Below are positions 21,548 through 62,490 of a DNA stretch of 64,000 bases, one piece after another. This DNA comes from Lineus longissimus. Taxonomy: Eukaryota; Nemertea; Pilidiophora; Heteronemertea; Lineidae. The stretch lies in contig NC_088320.1 in assembly GCF_910592395.1 (NCBI RefSeq), forward strand, positions 10,234,001 to 10,298,000, written 5' to 3'. Position 1 is the stretch's first letter, and each line of letters opens with the position of its first letter. The notes under the pieces were generated by a model. That model did no database searches. It worked only from the letters and a program-made list of their open reading frames with translations, and was not told the DNA's origin. Both the position numbers and the translations under genes were made by a program.

Positions 21548-24500
21548 CTGAAAAACAGAAAGAGAGGAATGAAATTTCATGATAGTTAAGATTGCATTTT
21601 GACACCTGAAAATAAGAACATATTCATTCGACTGAAGAAGCTTTATGAAGCTTGCAGGGAAATGCTTCATACGAGAAACTTTAACAGATTTCATAACTTC
21701 AAAGATACCTCCACTCCTTATAAACCCAGACTCTAACTACAAGTTGACCAACAATAGATTGAAAACTTCTGTGGCACAAGTTGGTCAACTGACCCTTTCC
21801 TGGTAGCGCCTCTCATAGAAATCCATCTCCGACTCCCCGGGTTGACGCATCTTGGACTTGAGCTCCTGCTGCTCTCGGTCAGAAATCCTCAAGCCCTGGG
21901 TCTGCTTGACCATGTCGACCTCCTCGAGGTTAGCACGGAGGAACGGGTGGTCTTCGCTTGTGATTGGCTGATTCAAGAAGGCCTTTGATGGCAGGGCTGA
22001 AAAAGGGATTCGGTCGTTAAATATTGCATTGAAGTTGCCACGTAAATACTGAGTTGAGAGATGAGGGTCAGTCACTCAATGAGAACAAAAGTACTATTGG
22101 CAAAGTTTGTTTCTAATGCATCTCGTGAAGTACTGGTCTAGATCCCAGACAAGCACCGATGTTAATTCTGAACAGTGGTATTGTTCATCGTTCCACTTTC
22201 ACAGTCCTTTGCAATCTGCCAATCTAAAATGTCACTGTTTCCATGTAACTGAAATTATAATTTTCTCTAATTGAAAATATTATCCACTAGTAGCGTACTT
22301 ACCTGTTAGAATTACTTTTGAGTATTATCCCGGCTACCCGGATCCAACGCCGATTCCATTTTTTATACCCCACCATTATCACCTCCTGCGCATGCGTACA
22401 ACGTACTTCCTCTTTATCTGAGGTTGCTATACACAAACCAAAAATCCACAACAGCAGGGAGGAGGGTGGGAACATTCTTACAGGTAAGTACGCTACTAGT
22501 GGATAATATTTTCAATTAGAGAAAATTATAATCCACTGCGTAGCTCCCTTACCTGTTAGAATTACTTTTGAGTAGAAATACTGAAGCTTATTAGGATGGT
22601 GGGAGTCTTGAAAAAAGGAGGTGATAATTAAACACGAGATGTTGAAAGGACAGCCTGGGCAAACCTCGCCCTCTGACCTGTAACATCCCTCATGTAAAAA
22701 GCAGTGAACGTAGAATCTGATTTCCAGTTTGCTGCTTGCATGAGTTCCTCCATTGGTACTCCCTTGGCTAAGGCCCACAAGGTGGCCATTGCCCTTACAT
22801 CATGTGCCTTACAATGTACCCTCTCCCTGAGCGAGGCATTGTCATAAGAAAACTTGTTGGTTTCTACCAGCCAGCGACTGATAGTGTCTCTAGCACAAGG
22901 TTTTACTTTCCCTTTCGCATATGTCAGAAAGAGCTGATTCTGGCCGTCTCTGACACTCTTGGTCCTATCTAGGTAAATTCTAAGTGCCCTGCATGGGCAC
23001 AACCAGGTGTCTTCCTGCACACTGGAGACTGAAGACATTTCAGGTAAAAAGATTGCTTTACTCATGTAGTTGGCGGATTCATTTTTGGCCATGAACCCTG
23101 GGGATGGAATGATTGTCAGCCCTTCCCTTGACCAAGACAAATGGCCTTCGTCGATGGATAATGCATGAAGAGTGCTTCTCTGCCTCGCCGAGGCTGCTGC
23201 TATCAAAAAGGCTGTCTTCCAGGACAGGAATTTCATATCTGCCTTCCCCAGAGGCTCGAAAGGTTCCAAACAAAGTTTCATGAGGACTAGAGGCAAATTC
23301 CAACCCGGGCAAATATGCCTAGACGGAGGTCTGATGTAAATGAAAGACTTAATGATGTCAGAAAGTAGAGGGTACCTACCCACTACTATTCCACCCCAAC
23401 CTGGGTGCACCACTGATATAGCAGCCTTGTAACCCAGAATAGTTCTAACCTGGAGATTCTTAATCTCGAACAAATAAGTAAGGAAAGAGGAGACCTCGGC
23501 TAAAGTGGCCTGCAATGGTCGAATCTCCCTCTCCCTGCACCATTCAAAGAAAATTCGAAGTCTGGCATCGTATGTGTCCCGGGTTGACTTTCTTCGGGCC
23601 TGGGCTGCATGCTCTGCAGCGTTGACAGGTATGCCTTTCTTAACCCAGGCATTCTTGATAATCTCCATGCAACTAGCTTCATGATGGAGGGATCTTTGTG
23701 GAGTTGTTTGTTGTGTGGTTGGTACAGTAGGTCGGGTCTGTCCGGAAATTTCAACGGCGACTCGATCAGGAGATCTAGTACCCCGAGAACCAAGGCTGTC
23801 GGGGCCACCACGGTGCTATGAGGAATACAACACAGTCCTCCTCTTGTATTTTGTTGAGTACCCTCTGTATCAGGGCTACCGGAGGAAAAGCATAACCCAG
23901 GATCCCCCTCCAAGAAATTGACAGGGCATCTACTGCCCATGCCTGAGTGTCTTGAACTGGGAAGACATATACAGGAAGCTGGTGATTTAGACTTGTTGCG
24001 AATAGATCGACATGGGGTCTGTCCCATCTGCTGAATACCAGCTTCAGAATGTCCCCCTTTAGGGTCCACTCTGTGGGGAATGTCCCGTCTCTCCTGGACA
24101 GAGCATCCGGGACTATGTTTTTCACCCCTGCGATGTGTCTGACCTTCAGGGAAATGCCCAGGCGTGCACACCAAAGCAGGACTGACCTCATGAGAAGACA
24201 CAGGTCCTTCGAATCAGTGCCCCCTTCTTTGTTTAGATATGCAGCCACCGTGGTGTTGTCGGTTAGAACAAGTACCATCTTGCCCCCCAGCGATTTTTTG
24301 AATCCCATCAAGGCTAGCTGTACAGCTCTCAATTCTAGCCAGTTTATATGTTTTATTGCCTCTGCCTTGGTCCAAACTCCTGAAAGGCTGCTGCCCTCCT
24401 TGAGTGCTCCCCAACCCTCGAGTGATGCATCTGTTGAAATCGTCACTTGGGTTTTTTGGGGGGTTATACTGACCCCTTTGAATAAATTGGCTTCTACTGT

Positions 24501-27500
24501 CCACCAGTGGAGCTGACGTTTCAGATTGAAAGGTAGAGAAATATGTTTCGATAGGATATTCCTCTGGGGGCACCAGGACTCCCGTAAATGAAGCTGAAGG
24601 AGCCTCATCTGAAGTCTCGCCCATTGGACAACGTCTGTGCATGATGCCATCATTCCAAGGATGCTGAGAATTTCTCGAGCAGTGGCCCACTCTCTGTCCA
24701 TTACGGATGAAATTGCAGACTAGAGAGCTGATGCTCGTTCCCGTGATGGGAAGGCCAGACTGTCCACTAGGTTCAATATTGCCCCAAGACTATTACCTGG
24801 GTTGGTGCCAATTCGGATTTTTTCCAATTTATCAAGAAGCCCAGGGCTGTGACAGTCTGGGTCTCTAAGCTTAAGACCTGTTTCAGTCGGCGTCGACTGA
24901 ACGCTCTTATAAGCCAGTCGTCTAAATAGACATGAATTCGGATTCCTCTGGTCCGAAGGTGGGCCATGAGGGTTGCAACTACCTTTGTGAATACCCTCGG
25001 AGCCGATTTCAGTCCAAAAACCAGGGCCTTGAACTGAAATTGTTTGCCCGCAAACTGGAATCTGAGGAATTTCCTGGATTCTATGTTCACAGGGACGTGA
25101 AAATATGCTTTGGACAGGTCCAGCGATGCCACCCATTTGTCGGGTTTCAGAGACCTCATCACTGACCTGAAGGTCTCCATCCTGAACGGACGGTCTACTA
25201 TGTATGAATTTAAAGCCTTTAAATTCAACACAGGACGCAAACCCCCCAGATTTTTTGGGAACAAGAAAAAGATTTGAATAGAAACCTACCTCTTGTTGGT
25301 GCACCGGGACTTCCTCTATTGCCCCCTTTTCCAACATCTTTTCTATTTCCAAGGACATGGCCCCCCTCTTCTCTTGGCTGAGAGAATTTGCTGTGTCCGG
25401 ACGGAAGTTTGACAAGGGAGGGCTTTTTTCGAATTCTATGGAATAGCCATTTTCCAAGATGTTGAGCACATACTTGTCTTTTTGTAATCTTTCGCCATTT
25501 TTTGGTGAAAGAGCCCAGCCTGCCCCCCACTGGAGGCCTTGAAGATGTTGTGGTGGGGGGGGGGGGGGGGGGGCTGGGGACAATGGTTGCTATTGTGACT
25601 GTTTGGGGCGATAGGACTGCTTGAATGACCTTTGCCCTTTTCCCCATTTGTTGCCCTGGCGACCTTGAGTTGCCTGCTGTTGTGCCCCCCATTTTTGCTG
25701 AGGCTTCTGCAGACCTTTTTTGTCGGCTCTTGAATCATAGCCTGGGGCCCAAGCCTCGTTCCTCGTGGGGGGCCAATCCCTTGAACTGGTTATCAACGGA
25801 AGAAGAAGCTTTCCTCTTGGTATTTCGAGAACTGTCCCTGCCAAAACTGCTGGCAGTTGACGCCATCGTGCTTGCCATTTCTCGAGCATCACGTCTTAAC
25901 TGTGAAGATTCCTTCGCAATATCATTAAACTTTCCTCCAAAAAGTTTAGATCCCTCAATGGGAACCTTCAGAAGGGCGTCCCTGTCTGACTTGTCTGGAA
26001 GATTTAGGGCTTCCACATACACATGCCTACGCTTGTTGACACATTTTGCCAATGCTGTAGTGCTCAGGGCGGCCACATCGCAAGTTGCCGTCGCTAGTGC
26101 CCTCAAAATCGAAGCAATGTCCGCCTCCGTGGAGCTCGCTTCTGGAGCCAGGGCCTGTCTGAAGGCTGCTAACAGGTACGATGAGTGACACACCACTCTC
26201 TGTTGACAACGAAGAACTTTGTCGATCCCTTCTAGGGCCTTCTCCGTCTTCACTTCAGAGGGGTAAAGTGACCTAGGTTTGAACCTACCTACCTTGGTGT
26301 TAAGGTAAGTGGCAACCGACTTGTCGAGACTTGGACATTTGCCCCTCCGTTCGAAATCAGTCTCCGGCCATCTATATTGCCTCCTTAGTCTATTCTCATC
26401 CGAGAATGACACCCTAGGAAGGCTCTTGTTAACTTTGTCCCACCTGATGTCCACGCTGCCATCCTGTCCACGCTGCCGGTCTCTTAGGGAAAGGAGATTC
26501 TCCCCCTCCAAAAATACTATCTTCATAATTGTCTCCAAGTACAGAATTAATATCCCCACGATGGACAGGTGGACTCCTCCCAGTCCTGTGGGAAAGGAAA
26601 CTGGGCGAATCTGGAGAAACCGCACGACTGTCCCTACTAGGGCCACTGATCGGACCACTGCCGGCTACACCGGGCCTCACCCCTTGCAGTGAGGATGCCA
26701 TTATGCCCAAAATTTTAGTCTCAAAGTGGGACATTTTTTCTTCCATGAAGGAACTCATCTTTTTCTCCCAGACTGCCCCAGCTGTGTGAGGATTTTTTTG
26801 AAGATGATGACCTTTACCTATGACCCTCATGGCCATGAGAGTGATCATGGTGACGAGACCCCTTTTTTGACGAGTGGGATTGGGAAGACCGTTCCCTGTC
26901 TGTAATATCCTTCTTTCCCGATCCACTAGGAACCCCCACCTGAGGCTCAGAGGATGGGCCGCTATCCTGTCCTGCTTTCTCAATGGAGCTGGATCCCTGT
27001 CCAAGGGAGCCCACATTGGAATTCGGGTGTGATCCCCGACCAGAGGCACCCTTTTCTTCCGCGGACTTGCATAGATTTAGCGGCAGATTTTGGTGACCTT
27101 GACCCCGCGGCTGTCCGGCCACTGTCAGAACGGCCGTTTTCAACACGCACAGAAGTCGCATTATCGGGCGTGAAAAGCGGTTAATCTGCCTGAACGGAGT
27201 GAGACATGATACACAACAAATATAAGTTATAAATACAATATAACCAGAGAATCTAGCGTAAAAGATAAAAAAGAGCGTGAAAAACACAGGAAATTTCGAG
27301 AGCTTTCTCATCTGCGATCCGGGTTTGAACGCGCCGAAGATAAAGAGGAAGTACGTTGTACGCATGCGCAGGAGGTGATAATGGTGCGGTATAAAAAATG
27401 GAATCGGCGTTGGATCCGGGTAGCCGGGATAATACTCAAAAGTAATTCTAACAGGTAAGGGAGCTACGCAGTGGATGTGACAAAACATGACGCCCTCCTG

Positions 27501-28915: not shown

Positions 28916-29127
28916 TTGGATGAGTGTTTGTGTGTCTCACTTGGAGACAGTCCGAGTCTGGATGCGTGTTTGAGTGTCACACTTGGAGACAGTCACAATC
29001 TGGACCAGTGTCTGTGTGTTTCACTTGGAGACAGTCACAATCTGGACGAGGGTTTGCTGGTGTCTTTCTTGGACTGGAGACAGTCACAATCTTGGATGTG
29101 TGTTTTGTTTGTTTCACTTGGAGACAG
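28916..29127. repeat. 42-bp minisatellite, about five units
   Basis: Units carry CACTTGGAGACAGTCACAAT; the fourth is expanded by a few bases. The 42-bp period keeps three plus-strand frames partly open, which explains the overlapping short frames; none is called as a gene. Confidence 0.9.
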
Positions 29128-29212
29128 TCACAGTATTGAAACACTGTAGGAAAAACACATCATTTTTGACGGGTCATCCTATTTTGCGTCCAGTGGCGTC
29201 CAACGCGAAATA

Positions 29213-30234
29213 AGGCCATTCAAAATTAATTTTTAGATTTACGTCACTCAGATCTGAAAAATTTGGTGGGGAGGGGAATTTGTTTTTTACTTTTTGACAT
29301 TATTGTGCCCGGAACATTTATCCCAAACCAGGCCTTCACTATAGTTACGCCACTCGTTACCTGAACAACAATGAATCCCATGTTGTCAAGGAATACTGCT
29401 CCGGTACACAAATGTCACAAATCGAAATCGAAACTAGTCTACTTCAACACAATGCCATGGTCCCGCTTGCATCACTAACCACAGATGCTATGATTTATGT
29501 GAGTTTTCAACATTTAATGACTCTAGCGTCTGACAGGTGGTGCGCCCTTGCAATATTAATAGTAACTTCAAAGACCGTTGATTTTTTTATTGAACGTGCG
29601 CGCCGTACGTGTGTTCAGAGGCTGCCAACTTTATTAAATATTCAAAGCATCCCTGTAGACAGGAATTATCGCAGTGACCACATGAAATTGTTGAAGGTTG
29701 CCTACAATAGTTTTCCCGCCAAAAACGAAGCCGCTCAGTCGTCTGCCACGTGTGTACGCGGCAACTCTACCCGATCGTTAGTCCCAGTACGCTATCTTTC
29801 CAAGTTCATAACTCAGTTCATATTTTTCTAATCTCTTTGTCAAAGATATCATTTTGAAGCTTAGGACTATACTAATTGACTGAAACGCAAATTCGCGGCA
29901 TCCGTGTCCTCCTCAGTTCGAAAAAGATGAAAGAACCTTCCACTCTAGTATATTCCCGCAATGCGGCGTCGGTATACTATTGCGTACTACATCTAACGGG
30001 AGTTGGATATTTTGGCTAGTATTGTCATATAAGCACTGTACCTAAGCTATCCCTATGAGGAGTTGTGCCAGTAATGAGTAGGGCCATAAAAAAGGTTTCC
30101 AATGGGCTTCAAGACCGATCTAATACAAAAAAACGTTTTTTTTTAAATTTAGCAAAAAACAAAAACATATAGGGACGGAGGCAAAAACTGGGGCGGTCGG
30201 TAACGTAAATCTAAAAATTAATTTTGAATGGCCT
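29213..30234. mobile_element. 1.0-kb inverted-repeat element upstream of FAM221A exons
   Basis: The ends AGGCCATTCAAAATTAATTT and its complement form near-perfect ~32-bp inverted repeats (29213-29244, 30203-30234). No clear target duplication was found. A 139-codon plus-strand frame (29412-29831) inside has no recognised domain. Confidence 0.7.
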
Positions 30235-30636
30235 AATGGGGTGTATATGGTTAAAATGTTTTCAAGCTTCCAAGGAGGATACCGCGCTGCATATTGTGAA
30301 CAAACTCGATGAGACAAGCCAGGCCTATCAATTAGACGAGTGCATGTTTTTAACTCTCAAGTACATATTTGGGAGGTGTTGAAAAAATATTTGCTGTGGC
30401 AAGTCTACAGATATAAATAAATTGTTTGGTAAAAAAAATAATTTTGAATTTTGTCAACCTCGCCATAGGCGGGGGTGATTCAAATTTGGAGTGAAAATGG
30501 CTGAAATGGGTAAAAATGTCCACTTGTGTCAAACTTGTCAATTTAAAAAAAAAATTCCGTGGTCAACTACCAGTTTAAATCGCACCAGTTACTCCCAAGA
30601 CTAACCCGTATATCATATCCGAGTTTCAGTTTAAGG

Positions 30637-30800
30637 AATTGAACCCGAGGCGGAGGACCTTGGTTGAGTTACCAAGACACTCGAGGGTGGAGCTAAAATA
30701 CAGTCCAAACCCGAGCCGATAGGCGAGGGTTTGGACGAAATTTTAGCTCCACCCGAGTGTCTTGGTAACTCAACCAAGGTCCGAAGCCGAGGGTTCAATT
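30637..30800. repeat. 164-bp hairpin
   Basis: Arms of about 70 bp starting AATTGAACCCGAGGC fold on each other around a short GAGCCGATAGGCGAG loop with few mismatches. One arm is shared with 43060-43145. Confidence 0.88.
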
Positions 30801-31245
30801 TCTATTCTAAAAGTACCTCAAACTTGAAAAGATAGGCCACGAAAATAACTTGAATATGTGCGAATTTGGCAAATTCCATCCATCGCCTGCCCGGAGCGCT
30901 GGTAGCGCCGTTGTTTACATTATGTTACGGCAGTGCGCATAGGAAGTGATGCTAAAATCCGCGCAAATGGGCTATTTGGAGCGTTTTTCTCAGCAAATAT
31001 GTGTAGTGCTCATTAAAAAACTTAGGGTGGTTGATGCTTCCTTGGTTCATTTGTGTTTGAAGCAGTGTTTTGAGAGCCTCAAACTTCTGAAGTGAGCTGT
31101 GTGCATGGTTTCCACATTTTAGTGCAACCCGAGGGAACTTTGGTAGAGCATCTTGGTTGCGTGTCCAAAACACTCCACTCTCAGAACGAGGCTTATGCAT
31201 TTTCCATTAAAAAGTTGACTTTACGGTACCAAGGTATTTTAGAAT
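30637..31245. repeat. Dispersed repeat E, copy 1
   Basis: It matches the reverse complement of 42640-43145 from the hairpin arm to CGGTACCAAGGTATTTTAGAA, with small indels. Frames in the two copies (minus here, plus there) translate similarly over part of the repeat but contain no recognised domain. Confidence 0.85.
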
Positions 31246-31328
31246 TCACAACCCCACGCAGTATTTGATGGCGGGCATTTGAAATAACTGGAAATGGCTT
31301 GGAAAATCAATTGTGGTCTTGTCTCCAT

Positions 31329-31798
31329 TCAGAGGGTTTTGGGTTACAGGTCAAAAATAGTAAATGAGCTCTGAAATCCACAAAAACCGTTGTAATTGGC
31401 TGAAATGTGTTGAGAATGTGTGGACGTATCATGGAAATTGGAAAATGAGGAAAAAAAGAAAATTCTCAAATTTAACCCCCCCCCCCCCTGTCCTACAGGG
31501 CTTTTAAGTGAAAATGCCAAAAATTGAAATTTTCAAAAAATTTCAAATAATTTCAAATTTTTCTACTTTTTTGGGCTAGATATGTTTCATAACCATCATC
31601 AATTGTGAATAGTAATGAGAGTGTTTATTGTTTTGCATGTTATTTTCATTTTGGGAGGTGTCGGCACAGAGCACGATGGGTGGCAGGGTACCAAGCTTTC
31701 ACTAATTTTTTTATTTCAGCAGGTGAATTCAGGAGAAAAATATTAGAATTGAGAGCGAGAATGTTATCAAAGACGAAAAGTGACGGTTTTTGTTTGAA
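31329..31798 (+). repeat. ~470-bp direct repeat, copy 1 (5-prime part of nuclease gene)
   Basis: It matches 36862-37328 closely, including a poly-C run (31481-31490) and the intron-exon boundary of the nuclease gene. Copy 1 continues into the nuclease exon; copy 2 is cut off by another repeat. Confidence 0.88.
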
Positions 31799-32121
31799 TT
31801 GGGAGGGGGCTAGGCAAAAAAAGAGGGGGGGTCACATACGGGTTTGTTAAAGTAAGTTTTTTAGAGAAGCCGGTCACAATGACAACACACCGTGCGATGT
31901 TTTTATGTGAAAATGATGAATTGCAATTCAAAATTAGCACAGGCTATCATATAAGTCATCTGTGTCATAATTCTCTGTGCGTGAAAGTCGAGCACTTAAC
32001 AATAGAAAGAGAACGGGTCAATCAGAGTAGAAAAAGGTGCAATGCCAAGAAAGTTTGTGAAGGCCATGGCAACCGGCCTAAATGCATTTTTCCTGGTAAG
32101 CTACAGTATGTGTTGAAATGA
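31720..32121 (+). pseudogene. I-PpoI-like His-Me finger nuclease, copy 1 (frameshifted)
   Basis: After an acceptor TTTTATTTCAG the exon reads RARMLSKTKSDGFCLNW, then, beyond a one-base-long G7 run (31825-31831), a second frame with YHISHLCHNSLCVKVEHL, ERERVNQSRKRC and CEGHGNRPKC, ending TGA at 32121. The SHLCHN...H...N spacing matches I-PpoI: catalytic His (I-PpoI His98), zinc ligands Cys100, Cys105, His110, catalytic Asn119 and the second Cys/His cluster from Cys125. This is the Pfam zf-His_Me_endon type fold (PF05551). Family members cut DNA with a single metal ion. It is tail-to-tail with the Mutator-like transposase, about 40 bp apart. Copy 2 at 62.5 kb lacks this frameshift. Confidence 0.85.
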
Positions 32122-32162
32122 AAGAAAATATCATCATATTGAATTGACATTTGAAAGTTTTC

Positions 32163-33146
32163 TTACCGCGATGGAAACCTCTTTGTTGTCTTGATGGCTG
32201 GTTGGATCTTGAAGGATCGCCGAAAGTAGGAGTGGTCATAGTTTCTGCCGTTTGGGTCGAGACATTTCCACTCTGGTACAGGCGGTCTGTCTCGTCGTGC
32301 AACAGCCTTCTTGACACCCTTCCTTCGCAAGTCCGGCATTGTTATCATCACATGTTTCTTGTACTCACCACCCCTGGTTTTGTTTTTCTTCTTCGTGAAG
32401 TAATCTGTTGCCCTGATGTTATCAAACACCAGCTAACTTCTGGTGTCCAGCACTCCGTTTATACCTGACTGTGTACTGCCTGTTCATTGCAATTCTGTCC
32501 AGCGCTTTCATCGGGCGGCAACGAGTATCGACTTCGATGTTGAACCACTTTAGTTTCCGTCGCCCGCTCTCGGCTATGTTATGGTTCATTCTGTGGGCTG
32601 CTGAATGGATACGGGGGTTGAGTTCCTGCTCCTGGTCACAATCTTAGGATCGCTGGCCGACAGACCTCGATTCTTGGACTCGACTCCCTGGGTTGTCACT
32701 CCAAGACTCAGCTGTCGCAACGCTCCTTTAATAAGACATACCTCCAAAACGAGATGTACCAAGTTCTTGTCAATCACTGTCATTTTAAACTTGGGAATCT
32801 CGCCGTAAGATGACCATCGTGTTGATTTGTGCCACCAAGAACCAGTTGTGCCTGAGCACAGTGAGAATTCGTTCTGTGGACAACCAGTGCAGTCACCACC
32901 ATAACAGTTCACAACACAGGCAACAGTGTCATACAGGTATCCCATGATCCTGTCGAGATCACCGTTGCAGCGCTTGAAATTAAATAGAGATTGCAAAATC
33001 TTGGATGACCTTACCCTAAGATCATTCAGAAACGTTGTTTTTAACAGTGTTCTCTCCTCTGCAGTACGTCCGCGTGTCTGGGCTTGATGCAAATGTATCG
33101 AGTCAAGTTGATGCTTCACCATGAACAAGCCACCGAAGAGCTTTTT
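32163..33146 (-). pseudogene. Mutator-like transposase C-terminal part, copy 1
   Basis: From upstream to downstream: KKLFGGLFMVKHQLDSIHLH, RTAEERTLLKTTFLNDLRVR, CNGDLDRIMGYLYDTV, a Cys cluster CYGGDCTGCPQNEFSLC, WWHKSTRW, then TTQGVESKNRGLSASDPK. This order resembles the C-terminal half of the animal Mutator-like transposase domain (PF20700), with the TQ..ES.N...PK motif near the end. A frame change follows near 32610 and the tail continues as RRDRPPVPEWKCLDPNGRNY to a TAA at about 32163. Its N-terminal side is cut by a TAGCTCAGCTGAC-type repeat at 33147. Copy 2 at 62929-64000 is colinear. Confidence 0.8.
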
Positions 33147-34526
33147 TAGCTCAGCTGACAAAGTCAGCAGAGCTATTCATATAGCTATTTGATTGGTGTC
33201 CGTCCTTCCATCCATCCGTCCGTGGACACAATTGGGCATTTTGTAACCGTAAGGCCTAGGCACTTCAAATCTAGTCTTGCTTATAAACACCGCAGAAAAT
33301 GTTGCTTACGGAAAAAATTTTGGGCGATTCGACTCAAATTCAGCTCCCCAGGGGGCAAAATGCGTAAATGAAAAAACAACTTTTTGACGCTCTATTCCAG
33401 CAGATAAAAGCTTGAAATAAAGTTGAAAAGGTCTTCATGATACAGACGTTTTGATATAAAATAGATTAGTGTTGATTTATATCACCAGTTGGCGGTAGTG
33501 AGCAAAACTGTTGTTTGACCCCAGATGATTCCGCTTTAAATTTCCCGCCGCGATCGAAAACCTCGAACCAGGGAATACCGGACTGCTGGTATTGCCAGTG
33601 CATCCACTGTATGAACGGCTCGTCTGGGGTAAATTGAAGAGGCGGCTCGACCCTCCACTGCGCGGTCGAGGTTACCTGGAGTACTATCATCAAGAAAATG
33701 GCGGTGACCTTTTTATTTCTACCGGAGCGGTGATTTTGTAAGTGACAAATTTTCTTATTTAAGCCTTTACGGAAATGTATTTTGGTACGAAACTTCACAC
33801 GTTTATAGAAAAGATCAACGAGAATGTGTTCAAATGCCCTCATAACGATGAGTTCAACGGAATTTGGTCAAAACAACCTTCGAATGGAGTCAACTTTCTT
33901 TGCGAAATTGAAGCGACGACCTCATTATTTATCGTAATTTATGCAGATCTGAGTCCAGCTGATGGGTGATGTTCTGATTTGTGTTCAAACTATTGGAAAC
34001 TTCGGAAATTAGTTCTATTAGTTCTACTATTCTGCAGGAGTATATTATAGCCATTGATGTTGACAGCTAAAAGCACGAAAACTTTGTTTATTTATCAAAC
34101 TGTATTGAGTGTTATCGAATCGAATGGATGTGTCGATCGTCGGGGCGGATTGATATGTGGTTGTGCGTCCAAGGCGATTAGGTCATTCAGTTAGTTTGAG
34201 AAAGATCATGATCATGAAGATGCGTGTTGTGTCATCATAACCGGAAAATAATTTGAAGTTATTAGTGGTGTTGTCATTGCCATTTTTTGCATGGAATGAT
34301 AGTTCGAGAGCTCTCATCGACGTATTCAGCATTGATGGAAAGTAGGTCCGGATTTGGCAACACGCCAGCTGTCTCACATTGTTCCTCCTGGAGTCACCAG
34401 GCAACTGACTTAACATGGTGCTACAGCCAACACTGTACAATCACTTTCCATCTTGACATCTTGTAATAATCTTTGCCAAATCAGTGATTCTTATATAATT
34501 TACTCCATGATTGCAATCAGCCTTTG
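33147..34526. repeat. Insertions interrupting the transposase, incl. TAGCTCAGCTGAC-type repeat
   Basis: The segment opens TTAGCTCAGCTGACAAAGTC and runs through a GTCCGTCC-rich stretch; a related start is at 37324. From about 33470 the origin is unclear. A 125-codon minus-strand frame (33466-33843) reads WRVEPPLQFTPDEPFIQWMH and onward but has no recognised family. Confidence 0.6.
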
Positions 34527-35007
34527 TTAAATTCCAATCACCTGCAGGTCAGGTCAATCTTTTACCAATAAAGTTAATTTTCTTAAGCACCTCTTTATCT
34601 TACTTCTTCACATACAGGGCATCCCAAACACTTTGCTAAATCCACTAACCCCCCATTTCAAGTTGGTATTGCACCAGACCCAAGCTCAACGGTACAATGA
34701 TCATGTAAGTGTCCAAATACCTTTTCAGGACATACTAGTATGAGGACATCAATTTTGATACCAGAAGCAAAACCAATCCTGTCCGTGTGTCCCTGTGACA
34801 TAGATCCTGGCTCTATTGGAAATGTCGCACTCGCACTGCATTACTTCATGTGATGTCACTTACATCTTTCACAGTTGACAAATTGAAGCATCCATGGTTA
34901 TTGTAACTATAATAGTCCTTGCCAAATCTATCTAAAAGTATCAGTAAAACTGCTAAACTATGAATTGTATCTGCTTACTCAGCTGAGCGCCAGGCCCTTG
35001 GGCCTCT
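34527..35007 (-). repeat. Dispersed repeat D, copy 2, inside the transposase
   Basis: On the minus strand it starts AACAAGAGGCCCAAGGGCCT at the point where the transposase reading loses similarity (after HVEHVHVEPM), giving a false tail EAQGPGAQLSKQ. It is related to 19447-19965. Confidence 0.7.
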
Positions 35008-35010
35008 TGT

Positions 35011-36144
35011 TGTTGCATCGGTTCCACATGTACATGTTCCACATGTAGGCCCTGTTTCTCAAAAGTCTCGGCAAATGCAACCCCAAGATCATATTCTCTG
35101 AATGCATCTGCCTCAGGAAAGTTAGCCGTGCACTTTGAGTGTCGTTCGTCAACATTTGTGCCAGTGGCACCACATTTAACTTCAAAACCTTTCGCCCGCA
35201 TTGCAGCCCCTATCCAGCAGAGTTTTGTTTTAACCTCAATATCAATGATTTTGTGTTCATCTGTCACATTTTCAACACATAATCCAGTCATTGTGCTCGC
35301 ACAACGGCCCATCTTGTTCCTCGAAGTGAGGTGTAAACTATTATAGCGTCCATCAGCTTGGACATTGATTCCTGTGTCGTCCTGATTTCTTAGGCGCAGT
35401 ATCCTTTTCAAGTTCTCGCGTATGTCTGCCATATCGGCCACCAACTTTATTTGCCTGCTTTTGCATGATACTCCTACAAGGGGGCGGGATTCCCATCATG
35501 CTCAGTATGTAACTCATACTCTCGTTGCCAATCATTGTGTCCTGCAACGCAATCTGTAATGCAACATTTGGAAGAGCGGCTTTTCGTCCGCGCTTGCCAG
35601 TGTCTATGTCCTCAAAAAGTTTATACAATTTCGAATCAAAACCACAGTTTTTACACACCACAGTGACTGAACAACACACCCCCTGCTTACGTACCTCTCC
35701 ATATTTGAATATCGGCTGACAGTTCACGTGATATTCGCTATGGGCCCTGTTAACGTCGTTGAGCACATCCATCAGTTGGGTTGTCTGAACAACGAAACTC
35801 TCGTGATCATGCTCCATGGTCTCATCTGGTAACTCCATCTCATCATCAGTATCTTCTTTCATGTTGACCCGTAGTAAGTTGACATTCTTGGCAGTACGGT
35901 TATTAATATCCGGTATGTGTCTTTTGCCGTCGTGTCCCATCGTTGTAACCTGTCCGTACTCCTGGGGCGTGAGTCGTCTCCATGCGGGTTGTAGGCCTAC
36001 TTCTCGTTCGTCGTCGCTCACCACCTCGACACCTCCACTCCGCACGTGTCCGCTCGTGAACATTGTTCTCGTTGCTGCATTCGATGCCCTAGCGCGCCTC
36101 GGACAACCCCGTGTTCCTATCAATCTCCTCGCCTTTGTCCTCAT
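35011..36144 (-). pseudogene. Mutator-like transposase N-terminal part, copy 1
   Basis: It starts MRTKARRLIGTRGCPRRARA, a basic region, followed by an acidic linker and then VCKNCGFDSKLYKLF, RGRKAALPNVALQIAL and MSYILSMMGIPPPCRSIMQK. After a one-base frame change near 35445, LVADMADIRENLKRIL and the first catalytic-type Asp in GINVQADGRYN follow, with IDIEVKTKLCWIGAAMRAKG and a Cys/His segment. The arrangement fits PF20700-type Mutator transposases. The DGD segment expected next is missing in this copy but present at 63985-63995 in copy 2. In-frame Lys/Arg-rich codons precede the chosen ATG, so the start is uncertain. Confidence 0.8.
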
Positions 36145-36861
36145 CTTGTCTTGTCTTTTCGTAACTTGTCTTTCTTTGCTTAAAATCGTACTCCTAGGAG
36201 ATGTCTATTTCGGGATGCTTCCTTCAACAGACTGAAAATACACAAGAAAGGACAAGAGATTACAAAAGGGTGGATGTTGAATAGTGATGACAATGGTTGC
36301 TGTTGTGGAAGTGTCAGACTTGGATGTGACAGACAGGGAGATAACATATGGGTTAATCTTTTTGTCATTTCACACCTTACTAACAAGCTTTCCATGCTTA
36401 TAATGCATCATATATTTGTTGTTTTTCAAATTTCAGACAAAGTTCATATTGTTCGATTTGAAATTTTGACATTTTCAGCATGATACCACTGTCGCAACCT
36501 TGGAACATCCTTTAAAAAGACAACTTTTTTCCAAAAAATTGAAATTTTTGAATATTTGTCATGAATTAAAATTGTTTCAAATTCCTATTTCAGATGACTA
36601 TAGACCACTGGTGATTTGTCGAAGATTCGGTACCATTCGATTAAGAATTCTATGAGTTAATGAGCTTAACTTGAAGACAGTCTGTAAACAATTTGAAGAC
36701 GAAATATAAGGTAGGTTGTCCGTATCGGACAAAATTTTAAAACGTTAATAGCTCGCTCAAATCAAGTTCATTTTTGATGAAACTTGGTTATGTTAGTCAA
36801 GACATCTCAAATGCTTGGGAAAAGGCATATTTCATTGATATCTCAAGATGATCCCTCTTAT
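36145..36861. other. Upstream region of the transposase
   Basis: A/T-rich, no gene seen. It should hold the transposase promoter; TTTTCAG at about 36229-36235 (minus strand) suggests a leader intron acceptor just before the coding start. Confidence 0.4.
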
Positions 36862-37328
36862 TTAGAGGGTTTTGGGTTACAGGTCAAAAATAGTAAATGA
36901 GCTCTGAAATCCACAAAAACCGTTTGAATTGGCTGAAATGTGTTGAGAATGTGTGGACATATCATGGAAATTGGAATATTTGGAAAAAAAGAAGAAAATT
37001 CTCAAATTTAACCCCCCCCCCCGTCCTACAGGGCTTTTAAGTGAAAATGCCAAAATTTAAATTTTCAAAAAATTTCAAATAATTTCAAATTTTTCTACTT
37101 TTTTGGGCTAGATATGTTTCATAACAATCATCAATTGTGAATAGTAATGAGAGTGTTGATTGTTTTGCATGTTATTTTCATTTTGGGAGGTGTCGGGCAC
37201 AGAGCACGCTGGGTGGCAGGGTACCAAGCTTTCACTAATTTTTTTATTTCAGCAGGTGAATTCAAGAGAAAAGTATCTGAATTACGAGCGAGAATGTTAG
37301 CAAAGACTAAAAGTGATGGTTTTTGTTA
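36862..37328 (+). repeat. ~470-bp direct repeat, copy 2 (truncated nuclease 5-prime part)
   Basis: It is colinear with 31329-31798 through the acceptor and first codons of the nuclease exon (RARMLAKTKSDGFC) and then stops at a TAGCTCAGCTGACTAAGTC repeat. It is the remnant of a third nuclease gene or of a tandem copy of the whole element. Confidence 0.88.
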
Positions 37329-37884
37329 GCTCAGCTGACTAAGTCAGCCGAGCTTGTCAAATAAGTTGTTCAGTGGCGTCCGTCTGTCCATCCATCCATC
37401 CATCCATCCGCCTTGAAGAATGTACCCTTGTGCATCAATTTTTCGCTACAGGGGGGGTCTTGTGCATCAATTTTTTCGTATGCACATATGTGCATAAGAA
37501 AGTGGTTTTATTTTTGAAAAATGGCATCCTGTGGATCATTTTTTGGTGTCCAGAAGAAATCTGTGCACAAGCATAAAACTGTCCAACTAAAGTGCTTGGA
37601 CTCCATTCGCAAGATGGATGGACGAACATTCACACTGCAGTAGCGCCCTCTACCCCATTATCACAAGATTCTACTGCGCATGCCCGGAAGACTATTAGGC
37701 GGCCATTTTTTACCATGTGCACAATTTCCATCCAGACATGCCAGATCCATGACAAGTAACCCGACTTTTCATGGTTTTGTTTCACCCGGTGAAGGATTTT
37801 TTTCATGAAATAGGTAGGTTAAACATTCAGGATATCGTCAACATAGATTATTTGCCATTTTTGGTTTGTTATGCTGAACTGTGT
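37324..37884. repeat. TAGCTCAGCTGAC-type repeat and TGTGCA-rich segment
   Basis: After the start motif comes a (CCAT)n patch (about 37388-37409) and repeated TTGTGCATCAATTTTT / TATGCACATATGTGCATAAG words. The latter recur at 58790-58915 and 61290-61390. No gene is recognised. Confidence 0.6.
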
Positions 37885-38417
37885 GTGTTTGTGCGGCTGT
37901 TATAAAACGCGGATTCCGCGGAAATCCGCGGAAAAATCTAACTTGGCTGCAGGGTGGCTACCTGAACCGCAGGTGAGAGTTTTTCATATTAATAGTGTGC
38001 ATTGTTGTGTGCATGAAGTACTCCTGGTGACAAGGTCTTTGGGAATCCCCGTTATATGGTGCGCTGTATGCGCCGTAAATCACAAGCACCTTGTACAGTA
38101 GTTTGAAATAAACTTATACTCTAGGACGGGCCGCGAAGTAAGTTTTTGTGATTGCTAAAAATAGACTCCAATGCGCAGTCGCATACATGTATATGGTTGG
38201 TTAGGTTCGAGCTGCAAGGAGATTGTCCTAAAACATTTTCGTAGACCAGAATTCAGTTCGTCATCGACCTATATTTGAAGGAGGCATACCGTAACGTACA
38301 TCAATCCGGGCATCAATCACACTTGAAAGCAGCCTCGTAATATGTTCCGTTAGGGAATCAGGAACCACGGTGGTGTCGAAGATAGGCCTAACATGCAAAG
38401 TTTATCAACACCTGTCA

Positions 38418-41366
38418 CCCCTGCGAAATTCGACTGGAAATTGTCGGCAAAAGCCGGCAATTTCCACCTAATTCCAAACTATTTTTCCTTGCCAGGAGGC
38501 TGGAATTAGCTGGAAATTCCAGAAAATGTCAGGGCTGGAGTTTGGCGGTATTTTGGTAAATGGCAGTGCCAGAAAATGCCAGCTCGGGAAAAAGCTGGCA
38601 TAACCTGGCATTAGCTGGAACCTTTAAATTTCCAGAGCTGGAATTAGGTGGAAAAATCTTGACCCAGGCCTTCCAGCTGATTACCAATGTCAGGGCTGTC
38701 ATTTATTGGAAATAGCTGGCATTAGTTGACATTAGCTGGAAATTTAATATTGAGTATGTGACCTGCTCTACGTTTGAATCGATCAGAGCACTGCACACTA
38801 ATAAACAGGCGTTTTTTGTCACTCAACAGTGACTATGATTAGAATCGTTGTGATATGCAACAAGAAGATCTCTTGTCGTGGAGTAAAACCAATAATCGCT
38901 TAGTTTTGACTTTGCTGATTGCAATCTTGTCACACGCACCTGCGATTATCACCACAGACAGGCAATTTTTCACATGCAAACATGATTGCAAGTTGATTTT
39001 GCTTGATCCCAGGCCGTGCGATTTCCAATTCTAATTCAATTTTGATGGCATCTGCAATTATAACTGCAAACAAGCAATTTCTGTCACACAGAAATATGAT
39101 TAAAGGTTGCAGGTTGATTTTGCTTCCAACAGAGGTTGCTAGGATGACCAGTTCTTGTTGCGGGCACCTGAAATTATCTATGCAAACAAGTGATTTATGT
39201 CACTTGCAAACATGATTGCTGTGGCATTATCAAGTTTTGAGCATATGCCACTGACCTAATCCCTTAGTTTTCTGACACAATCTTGTCACACTGTTATAAT
39301 GTAAATATCATTCTTGGTGTGTGTTGACCATGGACTTACACGAGCATAAGAGGCCCTATCATATAAAACGTAAGATTATTGCTTCACTGAGGCTTCTTGC
39401 AGACACTTCTGCCAGGCGGACACTTCCCCATTGCAGATGGTTTAAGTTGCCACATGACCTGGGTTGGAGTGCTCGTCAATGCCGACTGGCGTCGTCAGGG
39501 CTCAATGCCCATCCTGGAGACAGCACGTCATTTACATCATAGCTAATTGTGATCAGTTGATACGATGACGTCATTGACAATCACTGACAGGAAAATTTTG
39601 CCTCTCGTTTAATAATATAGATAGTGCAAAGTATTCACATTGTAATATTAGGCTCATAAGTTTGAGGATCATGGATTGACCAGATTGGTGTGAATTGCCC
39701 CAGGGCCCATGGAACATATGTAGGCCTATACCAATTTTAAGTCCAGACTTTACGAAACGTGCCGCGCTAACAATACGGCCGCCACCAACGATGGACGCCA
39801 CATCATCGCATAGGCTCACAAGGTGAGCCAAATAAAAAAGAGGTGCCGTTTTAACTGGATACCGTGACATCAACATGATGTTAACCACACATAGCACACT
39901 CTGTCACTTTGATGTCTGGAGGGCAGGGTTACAGACGGGGACTGACGTCCAAAATGGATGTCCAAATAACATCACTGCACGACCTTGAAAAGAATGATGG
40001 AGCAAGCCGACTGTTGATTGACTCCATCACTTACATGAGTCATGAGCTGTGGACATCTCCCATGCAAAATCTTACAGTTATGATACCGTCCGGGTCTACG
40101 ATCATGCATACAATAATACAGGCTTAGCAAATACACTGATTCAGGCTTCATCATATGCTAAAAAAACAACCTCAAGGCCTGTCCAGATTACCCTTTTTGC
40201 ATTCATTTGAATCCTTATGTGTTCCAATTCAATTTGTGTAAACTTTGGATATCTTGATATCGAATTCGGGGTAAAAATCAAGAAATAAGAAGAGCTCCCA
40301 CATGATTTCTTTGTTTGACTTGAAAATTCAAACCTACCAGTTCCTGTCTGAGGTGTAATGCATCATGGCATAGGTCAGGTGATAAGACCACATGATAGAA
40401 TTGCATAACATAATAGCAATTTTCATAATGCCAGCAAATGCCAGCTTTTTCCAACAATTGTCAGAAACATCGAATTTGAAATTTCCAGCTAATTCCAGCT
40501 CTGACAATCTCATAGTAAAGTGACAGAGATTTCCAGCGCTGGAACTTTTACGAAAAGTAAAGTTCCAGAAAATGCCAAGAATTTCCACCCCATGGATAAA
40601 GTTCCAGTTTTTGTCAGCTTTTGCCAGCTATAACTTTTCGATGAAACTCTCTAAATTCAAAAGGCGTTTTTACACGGTGCGGGTTCAAGCCGGATCGAGA
40701 CTAGTTCAGGTACCAGCCGGTTTATTTTCCCTCGTGTAAAAGCGAACCTACCGTCCTGAACCCTCCTGGTCCGAGGCGGGTTCCGATCGCCGGTCTCGGG
40801 TCGGTGCAGGCCGGTGTAGGCCGGTGGAGGAGGGTTTATTTATGCGTGTAAAAGCGAACCGGCTCCGAGCCGGTTTGCACACGGTACTCGCGTGACGTCA
40901 TTCGCGGGAATAGCTGCCGTGTTCCTGGCATGAAATTTTCCGCGGAAAGAAACTGCTGTGAAATCTTCAATTTATCGAGAGCAAGAGCTTTCTTTCCATA
41001 CAAATGCTGTGTACCAAAGCAAAAACTCTGCATCTCACCGGCGCCATCGTGAACCATTTTGTATTATTTGTTGAAGGTTGTGATATTTTCGTAGCTCCAC
41101 CGCCAGCAGGATTGATCAGCGCCACCAATTGACGATGTTAGTGACGAACCGGCCTGGAGCCGGATCGAGGCCAGATCGTCGAACCGTCCCCGTGTAAAAG
41201 CGAAATGAACCGTCCTGAACCGAACACGCCTCGTGACGGTTCAGGAGGGTTGTCTTGAACCAGCACCGTGTAAAAAGGCCTAAAGTGTCAGCTTATTCCA
41301 GCCAAGAGCTGGAAATTCCAGCTATTTCCAACAAAATCCACCTAAGGTAAAATTCATTTCGCAGGG
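38418..41366. mobile_element. 2.9-kb element with CCCTGCGAAAT ends and subterminal dyads
   Basis: CCCTGCGAAATT at the left matches the complement of ATTTCGCAGGG at the right. Inside each end lie many copies of TGGAATTAGCTGGAAATTCC and its inverse (38424-38750; 40430-40640 and 41285-41345). CCC termini plus dense subterminal dyads resemble the CACTA-like element at 43554-53317, so it may be a non-autonomous relative. No target duplication was clear and no coding region was recognised. Confidence 0.65.
40662..41281. mobile_element. 620-bp MITE-like element nested inside
   Basis: AGGCGTTTTTACACGGTGC and its complement GCACCGTGTAAAAAGGCCT form ~27-bp inverted ends with two mismatches; AAA flanks both sides as a possible 3-bp target duplication. 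The interior is G/C-rich with GAACCGGCTC- and CCGGTG-type repeats. The minus-strand frame at 40836-41057 has no recognised domain. Confidence 0.75.
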
Positions 41367-42639: not shown

Positions 42640-43145
42640 ATTATTCTAAAATACCTTGGTACCGTAAAGTCAACTTTTAAATGGAAAATGCATAAGCCTC
42701 GTTCTGAGAGCGGAGTGTTTTGGACACGCAACCAAGATGCTCTACCAAAGTTCCCTCGGGTTGCACTAAAATGTGGAAACCATGCACACGTCACGTCAAA
42801 GGAATTTCACCTCACTTCAGAAGTTTGAGGCTCTCAAAACACTGCTTCCAACACAAATCAGTCAAGGAAGCATCAACCACCCTAAGTTTTTTAATGAGCA
42901 CTACACATATTTGCCGAGAAAAACGCTCCAAATAGCCCATTTGCGCAGATTTTAGCACCACTTGAGCGAGCCGATGCGGACTTCCTATGCACGCTAACAT
43001 AATGTAAACAACGGCGCTACCGGCGCTCCGGCCGGGCCGGCGATGGATGGAATTTGCCTCGGCGAGGGTTTGGACTGTATTTTAGCTCCACCCTCGAGTG
43101 TCTTGGTAACTCAACCAAGGTCCTCCGCCTCGGGTTCAATTCCTT
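42640..43145. repeat. Dispersed repeat E, copy 2 (inverted relative to copy 1)
   Basis: The reverse complement of this segment matches 30637-31245 but has only one hairpin arm, at 43060-43145. Confidence 0.85.
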
Positions 43146-43925
43146 AAACAAAGGCTTCGGGAACACCTGCCCTGACTAGTTGACATGGGCCTAAATTTGG
43201 TTGCATAGAAATACATGTGCCCAAAAAGGTGCACAAGAGGTACTCAGTCCTAATTGCTGTGATTATGAACATCTTGTTATTTCATCTTCCAGTGGAACAT
43301 GGCCAGTCACACACTGACTCGCAAGACTGAATGCCAATGTGGTGCTTCGAAAATGGAGGTGCTTCTTGCACAAGTATCAAAGAACACCTTGAATCTTGAA
43401 GTTAGGGAAATTGATGACGTCATTGGTAAGTCAGATTTGAAGAGAACAGGCAATGGCATTTCAATCTCATGATGGCTACAGCATTATACATGTATACCCC
43501 AGCGCCCAAAATTTCTTTCTGGGGTAATGACTCCCTCTGTTAACAAGCCCTTTCCCAGCTAGCAAATTACATGGGACCCATATGGGTGCCAAATGGGCAA
43601 TCTGGGTTGCCAATATGGGCTCCATCTAAACAAACCATATGGGACCCAGATGGGAAACATGGGGCCCACTTCAACCATGTGGGGCCCATATGTGTTTTGC
43701 ACCGTGGACGCCCATGTGGGTACCATCTGGGCAAATTGGGGTATCTGGGTATGACGTGGGGGTTGCATGGGCAAGCACCACCTTAAACCCCTGTAAATCC
43801 CAGTTAGTGCCCACCTGGTCTGATGTGTTCTACACTTCTTTGAATAGTCTATGTCATCCCCAGACACGTTGTCTCAAAAAGAGATTGGGGACACTGAGTT
43901 GAGTTCATTGAGAATGGAAAAACGA

Positions 43926-50057: not shown

Positions 50058-52388
50058 TTAAAAGAGCTGGTGGAGGATAGGGACAAGTACAAATTCCTCT
50101 TTGTTGAGAACGAGTGGAAATCTCTGTTCCTTATAAGGAATCCTGAATAACTTTGAGACAAATGAAGACACTTTCTCCGCCTTAAGAAATCCAGACAAAG
50201 CACTAACCTTGACAATACCAAGGTCCCTTGAGTCCAATGGGTATTGAAAGAATGCAGTTACAGATTTAAATTCTTCAAACATCACAACTGGCTCCGACTG
50301 CTTATTTTTTGAATCCCTACAAATATTCCTAATCAGGCCATATTTTGAGCCAATCTGCACACAGCTATCACCGTCCTGAGAAGAATATCTAAAACCATCA
50401 AGCTCCATGCTCTTGTACTGCAAACAAGTCCTGTATGGGAAAAGAACTGGACCAGAGGAGTGCTCTTGCCTGAAAATGAGGCCTTCTTTGTTCTTGTCTT
50501 TTGCTGTCCCCTTGGATTCAGAAAGCCTACGAATAACCTGAGAAATTGCCTGGTTGGGTTTACGCACCAATTTTTTAAGTTTACCCAAGTGGTTTTCAAA
50601 TGGAAAGGCAGAGAACCCATCAAGAACACCATAAATCTTTGCATCAGCTGCTAAATGAACAAGTCCATGAACATTGTACACATACATGTCTCTACCATAC
50701 AACTTCCCCCATTCTATCACAAATAACCTGAGTAGATCACTTGCATATTCACAATGAGTAGTGAGATACAATGGACTGGACAGGCGATAGATAGCAACGA
50801 AAAGTAGAGAAAAATGGCGATAACAAGCATCAGACAAATTTCTTTTAGTCGCCACAATTCCACTATACAGGACGAATTGGCGGAACTCTGTTGCCTTCCA
50901 TCTATCAACGTCATCAAGTGATCGACATTTTCTAGGGAATTCCCGTGGCACGAATTTGTGACACGAGAGGAGAGAACCAGAAATCTGACTGACAGCATTG
51001 AAACCAATACGACAATTGTTTGCAATTGGGCCCTTGATCCAAGACCAGATGATTCGTTTAACAACACCAAGATACACCAGATGCATGGGATCAAGAGGGA
51101 AGTTGGAAACCATTCCCAATGAAAGCTCTGAGAGAGGTGAGATACCAAGTTGGTGGCCACCTTCTGCACTGTAAGCCATCTCATCAAAAGCAACATCAGT
51201 TCGCAGAGGAGAGTCAGCTTCTGGATAGGTAACCTTCTTCACCCAGACGCCTTTCTGAACACACTTATCACAGCCATAATATCCACTGTATAATTTAGTT
51301 TTCTTCACAAAGCAACGTGCTGGAGTATCACATATGAAACATGACAAATTGAGTAAAAACTGCTTCCTGAAACCATCAATTTCGATGTCAATCCCATTCT
51401 TTTCAACATACTTGACTTCAGACACAAAGTCAGCAAGAAATACATCAACACTGTCTGGCTTACTTTGTCCACAAAATAACCCAATGATAAATGGATCAGC
51501 CGTAAATGGCATGGAAATCCTTCCCAAAATTGGCCAGAACTGCGTCTTTGAACTCTTGTAGAGAGGCAAACCATCTATATTGATCTGGATATGAACAGTG
51601 CCACCATTACCGATGTCAAGTAATTCAGATGAGCTGGTTTTTATACCCTGAACTAGGCCAAAATGGTGATAACTACCTCCAGCTATGTTCTGAATTTCAT
51701 AGCTTGTGGTCGTTTCAAGAAGGGTGCGTGGGTCCTTGGGAAGACTTGGATGAAATGGGCGTAAGACGGAAAGAAGACCTCTTATTTTGTTGTGTGGAAT
51801 CTGAGAATCAGCTGCCCAAACTGCAAGATTATCAGTGAGCTGTGAATGACCACAACCTTCATCATCACTTTCACTCGAGTCTGAACCCCACGTATTATCC
51901 GAATACGAGTAGTAGTCAAACTCATCATCATCATCATTATAATCAACATAACCGTCAAACTGATGTCTTTTTTCAACATCATCACCTGGCCTGTCATTTA
52001 CAGAAGGAGTGAATTCCTCATTGTCCGACTGATCACTGCATAGGCCCACTGGGCCTTTATCCAAGACTGAGGCTGGCCTAACACCATCAAGATAAGGGGC
52101 CTCATCAACAAAAATAGGATCATCTAACCTGTGATATTTACTAGGCATGTCTGTGTAGTAGGGAAAAACAGACGCACTTGACGGCGATGACGTTGCTGCT
52201 TCAAACCGACCCTCGGCCACACCACCACCCTCACGCTCCTGGTCCTGGAGGACCACCTCATCCTCAGGCTCAGCTTCAGCATGTTGATGTTCAGGCTGCG
52301 GCTGGTTGACAAAATCAAGATGCGCATTGACATTTTGTTTGATTTTCCTCCATCGTGACCAACGTGACTTTGAGTTTGAACAACTCAT
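50058..52388 (-). CDS. CACTA/Tnp2-like (Transposase_21-type) transposase, 776 codons
   Basis: One long exon without stops. An acidic N-terminal region (about 90-185) precedes the catalytic part: IQINIDGLPLYKSS (D272), FWPILG, a SKPDSVDVFLADFV segment, FICDTPARCF (D354), a GYYGCDKC zinc-type pair (C373, C376), FPLDPMHLVYLGVVKR (433-445), WKATEFRQFVLYSG, and HGLVHLAAD...FSAFPFENHLG with E598. The IDG / CDxPAR / GxxxC..C order resembles the Tnp2 transposases of CACTA elements (PF02992-like); D272, D354 and E598 are candidate DDE residues by position only. ATG at 52388 (MSCSNSKSRWSRWRKIKQNV) is preferred over the frame's first ATG at 52466, which would add a hydrophobic stretch unlike related proteins. 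It lies upstream of the DUF4806-like gene on the same strand. Confidence 0.85.
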   Translation of the reverse strand: MSCSNSKSRWSRWRKIKQNVNAHLDFVNQPQPEHQHAEAEPEDEVVLQDQEREGGGVAEGRFEAATSSPSSASVFPYYTDMPSKYHRLDDPIFVDEAPYLDGVRPASVLDKGPVGLCSDQSDNEEFTPSVNDRPGDDVEKRHQFDGYVDYNDDDDEFDYYSYSDNTWGSDSSESDDEGCGHSQLTDNLAVWAADSQIPHNKIRGLLSVLRPFHPSLPKDPRTLLETTTSYEIQNIAGGSYHHFGLVQGIKTSSSELLDIGNGGTVHIQINIDGLPLYKSSKTQFWPILGRISMPFTADPFIIGLFCGQSKPDSVDVFLADFVSEVKYVEKNGIDIEIDGFRKQFLLNLSCFICDTPARCFVKKTKLYSGYYGCDKCVQKGVWVKKVTYPEADSPLRTDVAFDEMAYSAEGGHQLGISPLSELSLGMVSNFPLDPMHLVYLGVVKRIIWSWIKGPIANNCRIGFNAVSQISGSLLSCHKFVPREFPRKCRSLDDVDRWKATEFRQFVLYSGIVATKRNLSDACYRHFSLLFVAIYRLSSPLYLTTHCEYASDLLRLFVIEWGKLYGRDMYVYNVHGLVHLAADAKIYGVLDGFSAFPFENHLGKLKKLVRKPNQAISQVIRRLSESKGTAKDKNKEGLIFRQEHSSGPVLFPYRTCLQYKSMELDGFRYSSQDGDSCVQIGSKYGLIRNICRDSKNKQSEPVVMFEEFKSVTAFFQYPLDSRDLGIVKVSALSGFLKAEKVSSFVSKLFRIPYKEQRFPLVLNKEEFVLVPILHQLF

Positions 52389-52926
52389 GACGACAAAAAG
52401 CAAAAATAACAGTACCACTAGATTAAGATTGATTGAACAGGATAAAAACAAGGCTACGAGTACCACTACATAGGCCTACAATACATGGTCATGATAAAAC
52501 AGCAAAACAGGTAGGCAAGACGCACTGCACAGTGTATTTTCACGTACATAAATGTACACAGTTAAATGTACAGTGTAGCATGTACAGTTACAACAGCACT
52601 AGCAGCCTACAACGAACAGGATATCACAACAAAAACATCGAAGAATCTGCAGGATTGTATTGAAAGAATGTATATAAAGCACACAAACATCAAGATTGAT
52701 GCTTTAGACAAGGTCACAACTAACCTGGCAAACAAAAAACTATACTAGTCAATGAAATTATGGGAAAGTTTCTCTGCTTTTCGAGTAATGGCGTGAAGAA
52801 CAAAATCAAATATGGCGGCTGACAATGGCGTGCAAGGAGGGGACAATACTCGTCCCCATCAGCTCTTTCAGCTCCATTGAAGACGCACGATGCACTCGGA
52901 GGCCAATGGGGACGATTTTGATTTGC

Positions 52927-62475: not shown

Positions 62476-62490
62476 TTCATTTTATTTCAG

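Follow-up and report, generated by a model that had tools for sequence, protein, structure and literature searches.

A decayed multimer of a probable KolobokP DNA transposon with its own predicted nuclease in Lineus longissimus

In the genome of the nemertean Lineus longissimus, a gene for a predicted nuclease of the I-PpoI type lies tail to tail with a transposase gene. This raises the question of whether the two genes form a single mobile element and what a nuclease might do for it. The window analysed here is the whole stretch of 64,000 nucleotides at positions 10,234,001 to 10,298,000 of contig NC_088320.1 (C13:10234001-10298000 in the 391-Mb assembly); positions given below are those of the window unless marked C13. 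We conclude, with a probability of roughly 0.9, that the two genes belong to the decayed multimer of a KolobokP DNA transposon with its own predicted nuclease; the part of the nuclease in the mechanism proposed below is much less certain. The pairing of nuclease and transposase is already published under the name KolobokP (Kojima & Bao 2022, Mob DNA 13:24, PMC9587614).

The initial annotation described a plus-strand I-PpoI-like nuclease, and profile searches support this. The frame at 31879-32121 (+) in the first copy of the element (copy A) matches PF05551 (E-value 1.4e-11; score 45.1 bits, cut-off 27). The ATG start used by intact nuclease copies falls at 31615, and the gene occupies 31615-32121. 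Its frame is disrupted by length changes of single bases, with an additional G at about 31825 and the sequence upstream of it one G short. A second copy (copy C) has an open plus-strand nuclease gene at 62493-62978, of which 62493-62882 matches PF05551 with an E-value of 8.5e-13. The catalytic His-Asn pair of its product (P0001), H79 and N100, has the same 21-residue spacing as H98 and N119 in I-PpoI. By comparison with the zinc ligands of I-PpoI, the two zinc clusters comprise Cys/His 24, 81, 86 and 91, and 106, 112, 115 and 121. Among 41 sequences, the ten positions made up by the catalytic His and Asn and the two Cys/His clusters are invariant or at least 90% conserved. By sequence alone the match to I-PpoI is weak (E 0.02-0.05); a first protein search with the nuclease returned one match, an NCBIfam search of four proteins returned none, and structure prediction of P0002 without an alignment gave a predicted local distance difference test (pLDDT) score of 37.3. 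From PF05551 and the conserved residues, we predict that the nuclease is of the I-PpoI type.

On the opposite strand, frames 36144-35353 and 35444-34953 of copy A match PF20700 (E-values of 1.1e-17 and 7.4e-13), and the C-terminus continues in 33161-32163. The resulting Kolobok DDD/E transposase gene (32163-36144, minus strand) converges on the nuclease: the stops, at 32119-32121 and 32163-32165, are 41 bp apart, in line with the tail-to-tail arrangement at about 40 bp noted initially. Both genes are real but broken at this locus. Frame changes disrupt the transposase, and so does a stretch of foreign DNA (33148-35033) that stands in place of about 50 bp including the second catalytic Asp; the match to the intact monomer is interrupted there. 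The left end of this insert starts AGCTCAGCTGAC. A repeat starting AGCTCAGCTGAC(A/T)AAGTCAGC, followed by CATC/GTCC runs, is inserted in several KolobokP copies, always after a T run or TTA (window 33148 and 37327; about position 1870 in loci L002 and L003; about 510 in L055). The C-terminal half of the copy C transposase (62929-64000, minus strand) is likewise broken and extends past the window edge.

The transposase signature, broken in both window copies, can be read in an array of related units to the left of the window, where an intact internal unit (INT) encodes a 734-aa transposase in a single frame as well as the nuclease. This frame has two Asp, DxxH, a zinc finger ahead of E, the E itself and a CCHC finger after the first D. 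Across 23 aligned relatives the motif positions are conserved, except that one row has a gap and one has C in place of D; the CCHC finger's His is not placed in one common column of this alignment. For an annotated Lineus longissimus transposase fragment (P0005), identity is 92% to the window-derived query, 59% of which is covered, and 95% to the intact array transposase over 428 positions.

The association of the two genes extends well beyond this locus. Genome-wide, a convergent nuclease lies within 120 bp of 55 of the 57 transposase C-termini examined, and a transposase accompanies 55 of the 62 nuclease 3' ends examined. The genome matches listed (116 for the nuclease and 95 for the transposase C-terminus, including fragments and distant families) are lower bounds, as only the best candidates were scored. 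The pairing count used 77 of the 116 nuclease rows and 57 of the 95 transposase rows, leaving out short fragments and those transposase rows that end before query residue 151 or come from distant families; the reverse count took the 62 of 77 nuclease rows that reach the C-terminus. Among the 30 best nuclease loci, 28 have the convergent transposase (27 with the same 71-bp spacing from the last zinc cluster) and the remaining two have a repeat inserted behind the nuclease. Five of six distant loci fetched whole (L048-L053) share the convergent layout; at L053 a transposase frame was not seen.

This genome-wide pairing, beyond chance, confirms that the nuclease and the transposase belong together, as proposed when the nuclease was initially called the second gene of an animal transposon. 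We looked for the two outcomes named at that stage as contrary to the proposal, a majority of transposase copies without the nuclease or the lack of a PF05551 match, and found 55 of 57 copies paired and the match significant. An independent homing element, for example one from a group I intron, might instead have landed beside the transposase by chance, and relatives of I-PpoI are classically intron-encoded (PMC9587614). The pairing at 55 of 57 C-termini and at five of six further loci refutes such a chance association, and searches of window 29000-39000 at E-values up to 1 returned no group I intron match; we regard this origin as having a practically negligible probability.

The boundaries of the element, which the initial annotation had proposed to define by alignment, are clearest in the left array (C13:10106851-10229566). 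This region of 122.7 kb contains intact units and comprises 16 INTs, a count subject to the caveat that near-identical repeats can be misassembled, together with five long terminal direct repeats (LTDRs) and later insertions that total about 60 kb. The LTDRs are 431-432 bp long, with no more than one base of difference between them, and carry a perfect 13-bp terminal inverted repeat (TIR) and GA..TC ends. An intact LTDR-INT-LTDR monomer measures 4,626 bp (432 + 3,762 + 432 bp). The block is flanked on both sides by ATCG, a 4-bp target-site duplication (TSD) with a chance match of 1 in 256, and therefore reads as one insertion. A second family has LTDRs of 444 bp, GG..CC ends and the TSD ATGT, and at three other loci the nucleases are spaced 4,192-4,201 bp apart, as in multimers that retain the length of an LTDR. 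Self-comparison did not resolve the LTDRs of L049, L050, L051 and L053.

These features also bear on the name of the element. The initial annotation called the transposase Mutator-like, and a MuDR/Mutator element that acquired a nuclease would have in its favour that the Pfam family PF20700 carries the name 'Mutator'. The TSDs of MuDR are about 9-11 bp long; those found here, in two families, are 4 bp. The short TSDs and the LTDRs fit Kolobok as described (PMC9587614), as do both fingers, the CCHC one that follows the first D and the one located between DxxH and E. The name 'Mutator' thus belongs to the Pfam family only, the element is assigned to KolobokP within Kolobok, and we consider a MuDR/Mutator origin very unlikely.

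Several observations accompany the array. The inner LTDR flanks of L048, L054, L055 and the main array are alike in three families (TATTA twice, CATT/TATT in the main one), and the outer TSDs (ATCG, ATGT) differ despite this, a pattern that resembles inheritance of the composite in one piece. An element with ends TGAAAYGGCCAGGGSCC and CTACGGTGAGCC interrupts four left-array units (2.3 to 13.5 kb; L033, L039-L041, L043) and, reversed, borders copy C at window 62440-62479. One left-array unit contains 37.3 kb of other DNA (C13:10145108-10182427, L035-L039). About 27 bp (ATCGAGTTTGTTYACAATATGCAGCGC) are common to the LTDR flank of the window's array (30270-30310) and the right flank of the left array (C13:10229567-10229593, L043); the two copies are in opposite orientation and then diverge, consistent with a common origin or the same target repeat. 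A long inverted duplication of the locus, which this flank had suggested, was rejected, as the 34.7-kb spacer between the arrays has one inverted pair longer than 100 bp, of 139 bp.

Against this template the window can be parsed. The copy A region consists of an interrupted LTDR at 30311-31325, an INT from 31326 to about 36860 and a truncated second INT to 37327, so that the element is larger than the span of 31720-36144 first assigned to it. The LTDR (minus strand) has the outer flank ...CTCGAT and aligns with the 432-bp LTDR of the array in two segments, 30319-30632 and 31245-31325; foreign DNA interrupts it at about 30633-31244, a small internal part is deleted, and it is the only LTDR left within the window. 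The DNA at 30629-31245, which interrupts it, and that at 42643-43149 are inverted copies of one repeat. The two INTs meet at a seam lacking an LTDR (36853-36869), which reads CCCTCTTATTTAGAGGG on the plus strand. The second INT (36855-37327, minus strand) begins with the 5' part of another nuclease gene and is cut at 37327 by the repeat starting AGCTCAGCTGAC. Copy C lies at 62480-64000 and runs on to the right along C13; an alignment of 1,424 bases puts its identity to copy A at 94.5%. The direct repeats 31327-31794 and 36860-37327 were also considered as LTDRs, given their fitting length and distance, and were rejected: their ends have no convincing TIRs, and the intact array identifies them as the starts of two abutted INT units.

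The seams provide a record of how the arrays grew. In the left array, all 12 LTDR-less seams found read CCCTCTAATGAAGAGGG; in the window's own array, all four found read CCCTCTAAATAAGAGGG, one of them being the seam at 36853-36869. Relative to the LTDR-bearing boundary, CTCTAAATA-LTDR-AATGAAGAG, each seam type lacks five bases, a loss that can be assigned to one side. With a single footprint in each array, the simplest reading is a single LTDR excision per array before amplification, and the sequences suggest that the LTDR-less unit was then the one amplified. An LTDR is missing from 12 of the 15 readable internal boundaries in the left array and from four of five in the window's array; because these are the majority, cutting at LTDRs alone would poorly explain array growth.

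We propose the following course of events. The transposase would insert the element with 4-bp TSDs and may also excise single LTDRs with the loss of about 5 bp of one flank, after which tandem units could multiply in place via unequal exchange. As Kojima & Bao proposed, the nuclease would set off this exchange by breaking both DNA strands at specific sites inside the element, rather than choosing insertion targets. This comes close to the role in self-copying suggested in the initial annotation, for an activity that is so far a prediction. The suggested role in target choice, by contrast, is argued against in PMC9587614 because insertions show no strong target preference. That nuclease breaks start unequal exchange, as distinct from choosing a target, is a tentative proposal that we hold at somewhat less than even odds.

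The same transposon may equally have formed its arrays by ordinary unequal crossover, with the nuclease in another role, such as opening circles or helping excision, or in none now. Ordinary crossover can expand any tandem repeat, the eight uninterrupted units of the left array differ by a mean of 0.15%, and none of the observations ties nuclease cutting to the seams; we give this explanation close to an even chance. The retention of open frames points the other way, with 15 of 16 nucleases and 9 of 16 transposases open in the array units. This contrast carries little weight, given the youth of the units and the much shorter length of the nuclease.

In a third scenario, the natural target of the nuclease would be the LTDR-less INT-INT seam left by LTDR excision, and cutting there would either produce a self-amplifying array or allow the LTDR to be restored by gene conversion. 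The transposon would then carry its own repair-and-amplify device, and the 16 seams in the two arrays would be its products or cut-resistant remains. We consider this improbable because two other families do not keep the symmetry of the seam. The arms of the palindrome match at 5/6 positions in the main family and at 3/6 and 2/6 in the two others, and the palindrome was rejected as a conserved feature.

A number of points weigh against a KolobokP multimer whose nuclease drives amplification. The sequences reveal no direct link between the nuclease and array growth. Structure comparison of the nuclease ranked I-PpoI first, level by Z with Smad MH1 domains. Two of the 57 transposase C-termini have no nuclease nearby, including one that belongs to a 754-aa open frame on C7, and seven of the 62 nuclease ends are without a transposase, two owing to an inserted repeat.

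If the proposed history is correct, the left-array locus represents one insertion, with its flanking duplication, that grew to 16 internal units, its seams recording which boundary type was amplified. The locus, if confirmed, would make the questions of nuclease target and role in multimerisation of KolobokP testable with few defined DNA substrates.

The window also contains other sequences. A DIRS-like retroelement at 22628-26658 encodes a reverse transcriptase (RVT_1, 2.6e-24), RNase H and a tyrosine-recombinase-like frame. An 802-aa open frame at 50058-52466, perhaps another transposon protein, matches DUF4218 weakly (9e-4, below the cut-off). The sequence at 57395-58243 is a tandem repeat open on both strands, with units such as HIFLVHMLTEMSSFLCTCSG.

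Compared with known systems, the element shares with MuDR/Mutator the Pfam name, a DDD/E transposase and the C/DxxH signature by which MuDR has been grouped with Kolobok (PMC9587614), and differs in TSD length, LTDRs, zinc fingers and the accessory nuclease. With I-PpoI and the His-Cys box homing endonucleases the nuclease shares PF05551, the spacing of the catalytic His and Asn and two Cys/His zinc clusters, and I-PpoI ranks first in structure comparison, though tied by Z with Smad MH1 domains; in contrast to I-PpoI, its gene sits in a DNA transposon with no group I intron match nearby, and the sequence similarity is weak.

KolobokP is the closest counterpart. Literature searches found no KolobokP paper besides PMC9587614, and no other relevant title among the matches listed for Kolobok with tandem arrays or homing endonucleases. 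Kojima & Bao describe elements in which LTDRs of about 450 or 660 bp, with their own 11-18 bp TIRs, enclose a DDD/E transposase and a His-Me nuclease convergent with it. These elements have 5'-RR/YY-3' ends and 3-5 bp TSDs, with autonomous lengths of 4,022-4,748 bp in Pacific oyster families. Lineus longissimus appears as a host in their Table 1. The transposase they describe has C/DxxH, a zinc finger between the second D and E, and a CCHC finger after the first D; multimers occur as (LTDR-INT)n and LTDR-(INT)n, solo LTDRs are typical, and INT-INT junctions have a few bases lost on one side. They proposed nuclease-induced unequal crossover, with cuts inside the LTDR or at joined TIRs. The convergent genes, LTDRs with short TIRs, RR..YY ends, TSD size, monomer length, transposase signature, both multimer types and seam footprints are all found here. 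The element differs in the scale of its arrays: the main text of PMC9587614 mentions INT runs of up to four, and here 16 INTs lie in one insertion, including a run of 12 without LTDRs.

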